Below, one piece after another: positions 21,130 to 24,772 of a DNA stretch of 34,600 nucleotides. The first letter of the stretch is position 1; the number at the start of each line of letters is the position of its first letter. Both the position numbers and the translations under genes were made by a program. The notes beneath the pieces were generated by a model. The model had not been told where the DNA came from, did not search any database, and saw only the letters and a list, made by a program, of their open reading frames with translations. Origin of the DNA: Myxococcales bacterium (GTDB taxonomy: Bacteria; Myxococcota_A; Polyangia; Polyangiales; Polyangiaceae); the NCBI GenBank assembly GCA_023248745.1, contig JAHFDZ010000027.1, positions 1,082 through 35,681 on the forward strand. The letters run 5' to 3'.

Positions 21130-21238
21130 AAACACGCACAAAGTTACCGATCTGTCCTACTTCCACGCATCTTACGTAATTGAATACTTGGCCAACTCTC
21201 GCTCACTATGACTTTTTGGTGTGCGTGGAGGCTCACCG

Positions 21239-22507
21239 ATGGCGGCGATGACCGAAGGCTGCAGCGTATGCGGTACGCGATTCGAGATGCAGTTCCGTTA
21301 CCAAATGGAGGAGAAGGACGGCGGGTTTGCGTTCTATTGCTCTCAGCAATGTCACGACAAGAGTTTGCGTGGCATTCAAGAGGGCGGCGTGACATGTGAC
21401 GCATGCAACAAGCACTTTGTGCTCGAGCTCGTGTCGCAAGTTGTGCGATCGAAGGGGCAAAGACGATACGCATGCGGCGATGCGTGCCGAAGTCAGCTTC
21501 TTGCGGAAGCGGGCGGGGCGAGGCTCAGTGCGTTTCTGGGCGCCGACGCGCCGACCGCAAAAGCGCCGCCGATGCCGCACGAAGTCGAAACGGTGCAACC
21601 TACAAGCATTGCAAGTGCGCCTCTATCGATGGCTCCCGGAGCCCTTCCGAGCGCACTGCCACCCACTCCACTCGTCAGCATGATGGCGCCGCGTAAGATT
21701 GATTGTCCGCGCAAGCTCGCGATCTTCAATCACAAGGGCGGCACCGGCAAAACGACGACCAGCGTAAGCATCGCTGCAGGTCTTGCGGCACGGGGTCTAC
21801 GAGTGCTTCTCGTCGACACCGACTCGCAAGGAAACGTCGGCGTATCGTTCGGCATCAAGGCCGAAAAGTCGCTCTACCATGTGCTTGTCATGGGGATGAA
21901 GCCTCAGGACGCTGCCGTCAACGTTCGTCCGAACCTCGACGTAATCATCTCGAACGAAACGCTCGCCGCGGCGGAATTGTATCTCGCAGGGCGACAAAAT
22001 CGTGACCGCGTTCTGCGCGATCGTCTTGCGGGCGCGGCCGAACGCTACGACGTCATGGTTCTTGACTGTTCCCCTTCGCTCTCGCTCATGAATCAAAACG
22101 CCTTGGTTGCGACCGACGGCATTGTGGTTCCTGTTGCGTGTGACTTCCTGTCGCTCGTCGGCGTGAGGCAAGTCGTCAAGACGGTGAAGAATGTAAACTC
22201 GCTGCTTCACCATCCGGTGAAGATTCACGGTGTCCTTCCGACCTTCTACGAGAAGCGCGCGCGTATCTGTCGCGATGCGGTCGAAACAATGAAGGAGCAC
22301 TTCGGAGACCGTGTTTTGCCGCCAATTCGCGCGGTAACAAAAATCAAGGAAGCGCCCGCGCAAGGTCGTACCATCTTTGAGTACGCGCCCGAGTCGTACG
22401 CAGCGCAAGACTACATGCGGGTTGTTGACTTGTTGATTGACGGCACATCGGTTGCGGCGATGCAGACCGATGAAATGGATGATGACGCCCACGCGAGTGT
22501 GGCCTGA
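21239..22507 (+). CDS. ParA/MinD-family ATPase with two N-terminal Cys modules
   Basis: ATG 21239 has GGAGG at eight bases and is preferred over GTG 21221; the product is 422 aa. The N-terminus holds two tandem, equally spaced Cys modules, C-x2-C-x22-C-x3-C, at 8/11/34/38 and 53/56/79/83, probably two zinc-binding treble-clef-like units. A Pro/Ala/Ser-rich linker (about 100-150) follows. The ParA domain starts near 158 with the deviant Walker [12 protein letters not shown] (both signature lysines, K166 and K171), then [10 protein letters not shown] and [18 protein letters not shown]. ParA ATPases use ATP-dependent DNA binding to position chromosomes, plasmids or protein clusters. Here the partner is a ribbon-helix-helix protein 13 bp downstream, not a ParB, so the cargo is uncertain. 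The Cys modules are an unusual addition. Confidence 0.93.
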
Positions 22508-22520
22508 AAGGAGGCGACTG

Positions 22521-22841
22521 ATGCCAGGACGTGATGAAGAGATGGGGTTGGCGGGCGCCCGCGTACTCGACGCTGACGAGGTCGAGGGCGTGCTTTCGGG
22601 TGCATTCTACACACAGGCTCCCGACACGCGCAGGCCACCGGCCCCGCGTGATGAAGAAGTGAAAGAGAAGCCGACTCACTACAAGGTGATCTGCATCTCG
22701 ATGTACACGAAGGACCTCGAACGCCTCGACTCGCTTGTCGACGAACTGAAGTCCCGAGGCGTAACCAAGGCGAGCCGAAGCGCGCTCATTCGCGCGGCGC
22801 TCGATCAGGTTGATCTCGATCGTGTGCCGCGAGGGATTTGA
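22521..22841 (+). CDS. Ribbon-helix-helix (CopG/MetJ-like) partner of the ParA protein
   Basis: The gene starts at ATG 22521 with a near-perfect AAAGGAGG six bases upstream; the ORF-track start at 22437 lies inside parA. The 106-aa protein has a disordered acidic N-terminus ([20 protein letters not shown]), a Pro-rich middle, and a C-terminal ribbon-helix-helix domain: beta strand [20 protein letters not shown], followed by helix-turn-helix [15 protein letters not shown]. Such proteins bind DNA as dimers, and in plasmid systems (for example ParG, Omega) an N-terminal flexible tail stimulates the ParA ATPase. The layout here fits that pattern. A role as DNA-binding adaptor and autorepressor of the parA operon is inferred from arrangement. 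Confidence 0.85.
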
Positions 22842-22953: not shown

Positions 22954-23049
22954 GGTGTTTTGCGCCTATTTTGACTTAGCGTCTCATCTGCACGTTGGTA
23001 ACCAACAGGTCACTTGCGGCTGGGCAAAGTTGCGTGCACTACTCGCGCC

Positions 23050-24033
23050 GTGACTGTCGCAAGAAGCCAAGTTTGGGTACTGCTGAGCTCCATCGTTTTT
23101 TCCGCATGCGCCCTCGGCGAAGCGACCGATGTTGACGATTTGAAGCCTGGCGATGGCGGTGCGGATGTGCACGCGCCAAAGAGCGATGCTGCGGCGCCAA
23201 AAGACTCCTCGACCAACACCGTCGACGCTGGGTTAGACGCAACCCCAAATCCAGGTGATGCGTCCGCAGACGCGAACGACGCTTCTACGGATGCGAGCGA
23301 CGCACAGGTCACCAAGGATGCTGCCAATGACGCTCCCGTAGTGGTGGATGCCGCGAAAGATAGCGCCCCCGACGCACCGCCAAAGGATGCCGCGAAAGAT
23401 GTCGTCGTGGACGCGCCACCCGATTCGAGCGTCGATGCTGGATCGGACGCGTCTGTTGACGCAATGATCGACGCACCCGCCGATGCACCTGTTGTCGATG
23501 CCCCCATTACTGACAGCGGCACCGACGGCGGTGCGTCCGGCCTCACGTGTCCCAACGGCGCGTGCTTGCTAATCAGCGAAGTTTACGAAGGCGCAAGCAA
23601 CGACAAGGCCCTCGAGATCTACAATGCTTGCACGGCAAACGTTGATCTCACCTCGGTCGACGTGTGCATTGAGTTCAACTCGTCTTCGTATTGCAAGAAC
23701 GGTACGGGAACAGGCAACACGATTGCGCTCACGGGTATGCTCAAGCCCCGAGAGACCTTTGTACTCTGCCACAGTTCCATTTCTTCCTCGGGCTCGTGCG
23801 ACAAGCTCGACGTGAAGCTCGCATTCAACGGCAACGATCGCATCGCGCTGCTTCGCAACAACAGCATCGTCGACGCGTTTGGTGAGCTCGGCAAAGACCC
23901 AGGCGATCTTTGGGCAGAGCAAGATTACCGTCGCACGACATGCGGCGCTTATCTCGGAACCGGAACGTTCTCGACGTCGAGCTACGTGAGCCAAGCATCG
24001 AGCAGCTTCGCCGATCTTGGTAAGGGTCCTTGA
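23050..24033 (+). CDS. Lipoprotein with Asp/Ala-rich linker and lamin-tail domain
   Basis: The likely start is GTG 23050, giving MTVARSQVWVLLSSIVFSAC, a good lipoprotein signal with Cys at 20; the track start at TTG 23014 adds 12 unneeded residues. A linker of about 145 residues is made almost wholly of Asp, Ala, Pro and Ser (KDAANDAPVVVDAAKDSAPD). The C-terminal 155 residues form a lamin-tail domain (LTD): LLISEVYEGASNDKALEIYN, then VDLTSVDVCIEF, LKPRETFVLCHSS, and FNGNDRIALLRNNSIVDAFG. LTDs occur in secreted bacterial proteins, often with nucleases, but none is attached here. There are several Cys, probably disulfide-forming. The protein should sit on the cell surface or in the periplasm; its function is unknown. 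Confidence 0.85.
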   Translation: MTVARSQVWVLLSSIVFSACALGEATDVDDLKPGDGGADVHAPKSDAAAPKDSSTNTVDAGLDATPNPGDASADANDASTDASDAQVTKDAANDAPVVVDAAKDSAPDAPPKDAAKDVVVDAPPDSSVDAGSDASVDAMIDAPADAPVVDAPITDSGTDGGASGLTCPNGACLLISEVYEGASNDKALEIYNACTANVDLTSVDVCIEFNSSSYCKNGTGTGNTIALTGMLKPRETFVLCHSSISSSGSCDKLDVKLAFNGNDRIALLRNNSIVDAFGELGKDPGDLWAEQDYRRTTCGAYLGTGTFSTSSYVSQASSSFADLGKGP

Positions 24034-24122: not shown

Positions 24123-24162
24123 TTGTTCGTCATGGTCATGAGTGCTAAACTCATGACCATGA
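24123..24162 (+). promoter_or_regulatory. Promoter and autoregulatory operator of the toxin-antitoxin operon
   Basis: A perfect inverted repeat with 14-base arms (TCATGGTCATGAGT and its complement) and a five-base centre (gctaa) covers 24130-24162. Each arm is itself a small palindrome (TCATG-nn-CATGA). TTGTTC (24123) and TAAACT (24146), 17 bp apart, with TG before the -10, make a plausible extended promoter. The predicted start of transcription is then within a base or two of ATG 24159, so the mRNA may be leaderless. Antitoxins of the Phd/YefM type bind paired palindromes at their own promoters, which this layout matches. Confidence 0.65.
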
Positions 24163-24386
24163 AGGTGAAGGACAAAGCGGTCGCGGCGGGAGAATTCAAA
24201 GCAAAGTGTCTTTCGCTATTCGATGAAGTCGAAACGCAAGGGCGCTCTTTCGTCGTTACAAAACGAGGGCGTCCAGTCGCGCGTGTCGTGCCGCTTCCTC
24301 GAACGTCGACCGCAGGCTCCCTTCAAGGAAGCTTATTGCACGAAGAAGATCTGTTAGAGCCGGTCGATGTTGAGTGGGAGTCATGA
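24159..24386 (+). CDS. Phd/YefM-type antitoxin
   Basis: The 75-aa protein (MKVKDKAVAAGEFKAKCLSL) has the Phd/YefM pattern: N-terminal AAGEFKAKCLSLFDEVETQG, then FVVTKRGRPVARVVPLP, which is the DNA-binding dimer fold, and an acidic C-terminal tail (LHEEDLLEPVDVEWES) that should wrap the toxin. It is the DNA-binding, toxin-neutralising partner of the PIN-domain protein downstream, whose ATG overlaps its stop (ATGA). There is no ribosome site before ATG 24159 or ATG 24153, in line with a leaderless start; the ORF-track start at TTG 24123 would lie within the promoter. Pairing of Phd/YefM antitoxins with PIN toxins is well known in bacteria. Confidence 0.88.
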   Translation: MKVKDKAVAAGEFKAKCLSLFDEVETQGRSFVVTKRGRPVARVVPLPRTSTAGSLQGSLLHEEDLLEPVDVEWES

Positions 24387-24772
24387 TTGTGCTCGACACG
24401 CACGCGTGGGTTTGGTGGCTCACGAAGCCGAACAAGCTCGGCAAGAAAGCGGCGCGTTCGATCGACAAGGCGACTCGCCTCGGTGTGCCAGCGATTTGTG
24501 CGTGGGAAGTTGCGATGAAGGCCGAGGCAGGAAAGCTCAAGTTTGATCGGCCATATGACCTCTGGATTGATGAAGCGCTATCGGCAGATTCGCGAATCGA
24601 GCTTCTCCATCTTTTACCCCGCGTATCCATTCGTGCTGCAGAGCTCTCTTGGTCACACGCCGATCCTTCTGATCGAATGATCGTGGCGACCGCGCAGCTA
24701 CACGATGCATCGCTTGTGACTGCCGATGAACGCATTCGCGACTCGCGACTGGTTCGTTGTTTGTGGGAGTAA
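24383..24772 (+). CDS. PIN-domain toxin (VapC-like ribonuclease)
   Basis: The 129-aa protein starts MIVLDTHAWVWWLTKPNKLG at ATG 24383, with GGGAG upstream, overlapping the antitoxin stop. It shows the PIN-domain acidic residues: D5 in LDTHA, E42 in CAWEVAMKA, D94 and D97 in HADPSDRMIVATAQ, and D115 in VTADERI. These coordinate Mg2+ in the nuclease centre, so an active ribonuclease is expected; family members cut tRNA or rRNA. WEVAMKAEAGKL and ADPSDRMIVATAQLH are typical of the PIN subgroup paired with Phd antitoxins. The toxin RNA target is unknown. The stop codon lies within a dyad that could terminate transcription from both sides. Confidence 0.92.
   Translation: MIVLDTHAWVWWLTKPNKLGKKAARSIDKATRLGVPAICAWEVAMKAEAGKLKFDRPYDLWIDEALSADSRIELLHLLPRVSIRAAELSWSHADPSDRMIVATAQLHDASLVTADERIRDSRLVRCLWE

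Follow-up and report, generated by a model that had tools for sequence, protein, structure and literature searches.

Cells use ParA ATPases to position chromosomes, plasmids and protein machines, and usually leave the choice of cargo to partner proteins. Pairs of a ParA and a ribbon-helix-helix (RHH) protein are typical of plasmids (ParAG, delta-omega); in type Ib partition (ParA/ParF-ParG, delta-omega), ParA works with a small RHH partner that has a disordered N-terminal tail and autoregulates the operon. Type Ia ParA proteins (P1 ParA, SopA) carry an extra N-terminal domain, which is a classical DNA-binding domain. On the chromosomes of Sulfolobales, the SegAB segregation system consists of a ParA-family gene followed by an RHH gene; the RHH protein SegB binds imperfect palindromes just upstream of segA and has many dispersed sites, and the archaeal SegA is not described with zinc fingers (PMC12284271). 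The partner proteins of ParA/MinD ATPases typically touch their ATPase via a disordered N terminus, and the tails of known partners have been described as carrying positive charge (PMC10241942). Within the Myxococcota, Myxococcus xanthus has nucleoid-dependent ParA/MinD ATPases in its PomXYZ and ParABS systems (PMC7993993, PMC12288465). It also has CdbA and CdbB, small conserved myxobacterial RHH nucleoid-associated proteins of 67-86 aa, encoded in a cdbA-cdbB operon and not described with a ParA partner (PMC7156744).

The locus investigated here, in a window of 34,600 nucleotides (the whole stretch of DNA that was analysed), resembles several of these systems in part. As in SegAB, a chromosomal ParA-family gene is followed by an RHH gene, which is a likeness in organisation. 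As in type Ib partition, the RHH partner is small and has an N-terminal tail predicted to be disordered, but the pair is chromosomal and vertically inherited, with fingers on the ParA protein. The ATPase, here called zfParA, shares with type Ia ParA proteins the possession of an extra N-terminal domain, which in this case is made of tandem treble-clef zinc fingers. Its partner differs from those of PomXYZ and ParABS, and resembles CdbA and CdbB as a small RHH protein; identity with PomZ or CdbA was rejected, since partners and size differ. A search of the chiefly open-access literature found no description of a zinc-finger ParA of myxobacteria, although an M. xanthus orthologue may be mentioned somewhere at the level of the gene. 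The cis dyad described below is new here. The features of the locus are as follows.

21188..21212, + strand: upstream element TTGGCC-N14-ATGAC of the window's family, putative promoter or operator
21228-21232, + strand: ribosome-binding site GGAGG of zfParA, 6 nt ahead of the ATG at 21239
21239..22507, + strand: zfParA, 422-aa ParA-family ATPase bearing tandem zinc fingers at its N terminus, starting with ATG
21260..21352, + strand: zinc-finger module 1, C8-x2-C11-x22-C34-x3-C38, TRASH/MYM/eL24-like treble clef
21395..21487, + strand: zinc-finger module 2, C53-x2-C56-x22-C79-x3-C83, 31 residues
21488..21709, + strand: variable Pro/Ala-rich linker from the fingers to the ATPase domain
21710..22504, + strand: ParA ATPase domain of zfParA
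21734-21754, + strand: deviant Walker A KGGTGKT of zfParA (K166, K171)
22510..22514, + strand: ribosome-binding site GGAGG of the partner gene, inside the 13-bp intergenic gap (operon)
22521..22841, + strand: RHH-like partner protein, 106 aa, 13 bp after zfParA
22563..22610, + strand: N-terminal tail motif of the partner (16 residues), candidate ParA-contact motif
22677..22814, + strand: RHH domain of the partner, strand HYKVICIS and helices 63-78 and 86-96

Residues of zfParA are numbered from the ATG at 21239; the GTG at 21221 given by the ORF tool is a less likely start.

Both Cys modules read exactly C-x2-C-x22-C-x3-C (C8-C38 and C53-C83), confirming the identical internal spacing pointed out in the first-pass annotation. 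Among 48 two-module orthologues, the eight cysteines are invariant, as are F15, Q22 and F60, and F19, S35, Q67 and R84 are nearly invariant. The second finger is exactly 31 residues long in every one of these orthologues and the first 31 to 40; only one module is present in four families (f14, f21, f23 and f47). The Pfam family zf-FCS (MYM/TRASH) matched 43 of the 48 members (best 4e-8), the window's own zfParA lying below the cut-off while its family as a whole matches. An HMM search with the fingers gave matches to eL24 and to the MYM5 TRASH domain. In the AlphaFold model the fingers form two beta-hairpin-helix units (mean pLDDT 72); Foldseek with this model returned no match at E 0.001 or better; the sensible matches at E > 0.001 were ribosomal eL24 (probability 0.99, 44 columns at 2.1 A) and again MYM5 TRASH. 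As judged by sequence and predicted structure, both Cys modules belong with the treble-clef zinc fingers of TRASH/MYM/eL24-like type, and they would be expected to bind zinc. TRASH, MYM-type (zf-FCS) and eL24 fingers have the treble clef C-x2-C ... (F)CS-x2-C in common, which zfParA has twice in tandem, joined to its ATPase domain. Compared with two congeners, the fingers had dN/dS values of 0.015 and 0.09 and the linker one of about 0.2, indicating that the fingers are maintained while the linker drifts; the linker is also far shorter in other families than in the window's. At one locus (L054, G271 contig C1), fingers and ATPase are encoded in different frames, which is a frameshift or an assembly error.

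The full ParA domain with both signature lysines that had been read from the sequence was recovered as a match to AAA_31 (E=2e-47), with K166 and K171 present. Solved Soj/ParA proteins matched the ATPase domain with E values down to 4e-42, and no equivalog cut-off was reached among the NCBIfam families listed. At least 97% of 68 orthologues retain K166, K171, T172, D193, D195 and D276 (Walker B), so an active ATPase would be expected. The signature-lysine Walker A and the Walker A' and B aspartates place zfParA, on sequence grounds, in the ParA branch of the ParA/MinD deviant-Walker ATPases. In the alignment, a lysine of the conserved VRLxEAP segment is lined up with a basic residue of Soj, which we take to have a DNA-binding role. 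C277 and C301 are conserved among orthologues as well, but are nothing special, since the canonical ParA of the same genome has Cys at both positions. The dN/dS of the domain was 0.04 against the two congeners.

An RHH-like gene directly follows zfParA in 62 of 69 assessable loci, from a sample of 70 that includes some close relatives and one locus cut by a contig end. Family f60 has a highly diverged version of the RHH gene downstream, and in family f39 the protein is missing, including in three complete genomes; of the 14 genomes searched, those outside f39 carry one copy each. Because f39 keeps zfParA, the ATPase can evidently act without the RHH protein, and because it keeps the fingers too, these are probably not there solely to hold that protein. 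The partner ORF is real, given dN/dS values of 0.02 and 0.05 against the two congeners. Its assignment draws on weak sequence matches and a structural model: Pfam RHH_1 matches weakly in 28 of 50 partner orthologues (best E 0.002), and a profile match to RHH sequences is in the correct register but weak. In the AlphaFold model the tail is disordered and the C-terminal domain is predicted with confidence, as an extended strand-helix-helix in which most of residues 60-100 have pLDDT > 90. The monomer gave no match in Foldseek, and an RHH profile search of the PDB did not recover CdbA/CdbB. Conserved features include the strand HYKVICIS, DLxRLD..V..LKxRG in helix 1 and (S/A)NRSALIRxAL in helix 2, which agrees with the RHH test pattern S/R-S-x-L-I-R-x-A; in the N-terminal tail, the motif DEVxxVLxxxFY is conserved. 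The weak RHH matches and the predicted fold, disordered tail included, are in line with the flexible-tailed RHH partner proposed earlier, and we tentatively regard the partner as a ribbon-helix-helix protein.

A search for the Cys-module ParA across the Myxococcota, as the first-pass annotation had advised, found a clear orthologue in 125 of the 379 genomes sampled, with E <= 4e-65 for the whole protein among the matches listed. Generic ParA proteins come after this step at about 1e-47, with one partial-contig match in between. In the class, 140 of 290 genomes gave a match to the N-terminal 150 residues alone. Within the family and order of the window, zfParA is present in nearly every genome, usually in one copy, and a GTDB-wide scan with peptide patterns, which reach only close relatives, hit only Myxococcales, Polyangiaceae and Nannocystis records. 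As had been supposed, the gene is chromosomal: in complete genomes it lies on the main chromosome, which disfavours a plasmid origin, and in 20 loci it lies just downstream of a gene that by eye we take to be purH. Sequence searches of plasmid and phage collections found no ParA covering 80% of zfParA; among the matches listed, no plasmid or phage ParA aligns to anything before residue 84, and most start aligning around 145-160, so that they lack the fingers. With no finger-bearing relative in these collections, a plasmid or phage origin of zfParA was rejected. The RHH partner had no match in the plasmid collection at E 0.1. These results do not bear out the combination that would have spoken against the original proposal, finger-less homologues in standard plasmid parAG loci together with a plasmid remnant here. 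The best reading of these data is a chromosomal, vertically inherited two-gene module of Myxococcota.

Some neighbouring genes were also noted. A conserved membrane protein starting MFR lies downstream of zfParA or the RHH gene at L102:6363-7988 and in L088, L089, L090, L093, L095 and L101, a linkage confined to families f39, f47 and f67. It has no Pfam match and looks like an extracytoplasmic sensor; in some loci it is followed by what, by eye, are presumably a DUF1343/NamZ-type muramidase-like gene and a Clp ATPase gene. A homologous cluster lies apart from zfParA in G376 contig C93, and the membrane protein was rejected as a third gene of the module on account of such a separate homologue. 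The window itself encodes a protein that resembles lipoproteins and combines a lamin-tail domain with a long low-complexity stretch rich in Asp and Ala (23014-24033), and a Phd/YefM-like antitoxin with a PIN-domain toxin (24123-24772).

Neither ParB nor parS had been seen at the locus, and this held: the single ParB of the genome adjoins the canonical ParA on a different contig from zfParA, and the window contains no parS sites beyond chance. In complete genomes, canonical parA/parB are likewise located away from zfParA. The distance from zfParA to parB is 10-12 kb in four related large genomes, 87-89 kb in two and 0.8-2 Mb in others, so proximity to parB is not a general linkage. By gene content and position, the zfParA-RHH pair is separate from the canonical chromosomal ParABS. 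In ten complete Myxococcota genomes (G239, G268, G271, G231, G221, G248, G155, G296, G359 and G410), parB lies far from dnaA and the parS-like sequence TGTTNCACGTGNAACA, where found, nearer to dnaA; the parAB genes and parS appear to be unlinked in these ten genomes.

Repeated RHH sites near the operon had been suggested as a target for searching. What emerged is a single operator-like promoter dyad in many relatives; an array or a genome-wide excess of sites did not. Many lineages have this dyad, centred on RCTTCNATAA, directly ahead of the operon, at about 100-fold over background. Of 59 loci, 16 have its core CTTCNATAV in the 110 nt upstream, where 0.14 would be expected from the background of those loci, uncorrected for intergenic base composition. 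The core frequently forms the middle of a longer dyad, AAGCRCTT-CNAT-AAGYGCTT. As its reading frame varies between loci, it is a feature of the DNA. In f49 it overlaps, by eye, the -10 box of a TTGACA-N17/18-TATAAG-like promoter, and the strict core is found in none of the (few) loci without an RHH neighbour. SegAB is again similar in having imperfect palindromes just upstream of the operon, but genome-wide scans here showed no excess of the dyad over a reversed-pattern control, and many dispersed sites like those of SegB were not seen. A position at the promoter without genome-wide excess is best read as an operator; the lack of both an array and an excess argues against a classical centromere using this dyad. 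It therefore looks like an operator and not a centromere array, the latter having been rejected because dyad-like patterns did not exceed the control. Nor was a tandem-repeat centromere found; this and the failure to detect any relative of the RHH protein on plasmids are further differences from type Ib partition. The window's family has another element: TTGGCC is present in 22 of 24 of its upstream regions and TTGGCC-N14-RTGNC in 14 of 24, compared to 0 of 40 in others. The 3' end of purH (GGCACTTCCGGCACTGA) came up as a false site in the palindrome search at several loci and was removed by hand. In G159, two intergenic sites on contigs C1 and C38 (L121 site 1473, L123 site 1470) have in common a 24-bp dyad, GCTTCGATAAGTGCTCATCGAAGC, that is nearly identical between them and looks like the one at the zfParA promoter. 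At L119 site 1692 (G161 contig C12), three tandem TATCGA(A)G units spaced by 12 bp lie upstream of a gene that, by eye, is presumably lepA.

The explanation that we favour, at nearly an even chance and largely by analogy, is a SegAB- or ParAG-like chromosomal ParA-RHH module that is autoregulated by the RHH protein and whose fingers dock DNA or cargo. We infer that an ATP-bound zfParA dimer would bind the nucleoid and that an RHH dimer would bind DNA through its C-terminal domain, while its disordered tail would touch zfParA via DEVxxVLxxxFY and stimulate ATP turnover. The RHH protein may repress its own operon via the promoter-proximal dyad of the relatives, a partner-autoregulated operon being the logic expected from type Ib partition. 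The tandem fingers, on their variable linker, could serve as docking modules for DNA or cargo and would set zfParA apart from the cell's canonical ParA. The two-gene linkage across many families supports this reading, as do the conserved catalytic residues, the evidence for zinc fingers, the low dN/dS of fingers, ATPase and RHH protein, the upstream dyad, and the precedents of SegAB and of ParA/MinD partners with disordered N termini; the lack of a centromere, the absence of the RHH protein from f39, an upstream element in the window unlike the dyad and the weak matches behind the RHH assignment count against it. The proposed contact is also weakened by the tail motif, which is acidic to neutral, unlike the positively charged tails of known ParA/MinD partners. 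That the pair is what remains of a partition locus from a plasmid or integrated element, as the plasmid association of ParA-RHH pairs might suggest, is extremely unlikely: zfParA is widespread in the phylum, mostly single-copy, on the main chromosomes of complete genomes and beside purH in those 20 loci, it is under strong purifying selection, and the plasmid searches gave neither a finger-bearing relative nor a match to the RHH protein.

The pair might instead control transcription without moving any cargo, in the style of FlhG-FleQ, with the RHH protein as transcription factor and zfParA as its nucleotide-dependent antagonist or co-regulator. The strict pairing, the two additional intergenic dyads in G159 and a single promoter-proximal dyad without dispersed sites, as fits an autoregulator, speak for such control; we nevertheless consider it unlikely, given the conserved ParA signature lysine and catalytic residues, the fingers kept where the RHH protein is absent and the small number of candidate target sites. 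TRASH/MYM fingers more often dock proteins or bind metal than read DNA. Protein docking would suit a McdAB/PomXYZ-like positioning of a protein cluster, with fingers or RHH tail gripping a protein cargo and DNA binding by the RHH protein being secondary, and f39, which lacks the RHH protein but has the downstream membrane protein in a gene order similar to that of f47 and f67, points the same way. Most families, however, have no conserved cargo gene beside the pair and the neighbours vary by family, making this option distinctly improbable. Metal binding would suit fingers that sense metal ions or redox state and gate ParA-RHH regulation, an idea encouraged by their TRASH/MYM/eL24-like fold and by a Metal_resist-domain protein and a two-component system upstream in the window. 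As those genes were not seen conserved beside the pair in relatives and all eight cysteines are invariant, as expected of structural zinc, we hold sensing to be very unlikely.

Returning to the ParA-RHH module that we favour, a conserved, single-copy, finger-bearing ParA with a dedicated DNA-binding partner across much of the phylum points to a positioning or regulatory system that has not been described, whose function is open to genetic testing in myxobacteria with orthologues. It is possible, if on the unlikely side, that many Myxococcota run a second ATP-driven nucleoid-positioning system beside ParABS, in which built-in fingers select the cargo and the RHH protein couples it to DNA. If true, this second, zinc-finger ParA positioning system would represent a partition architecture absent from the literature searched.
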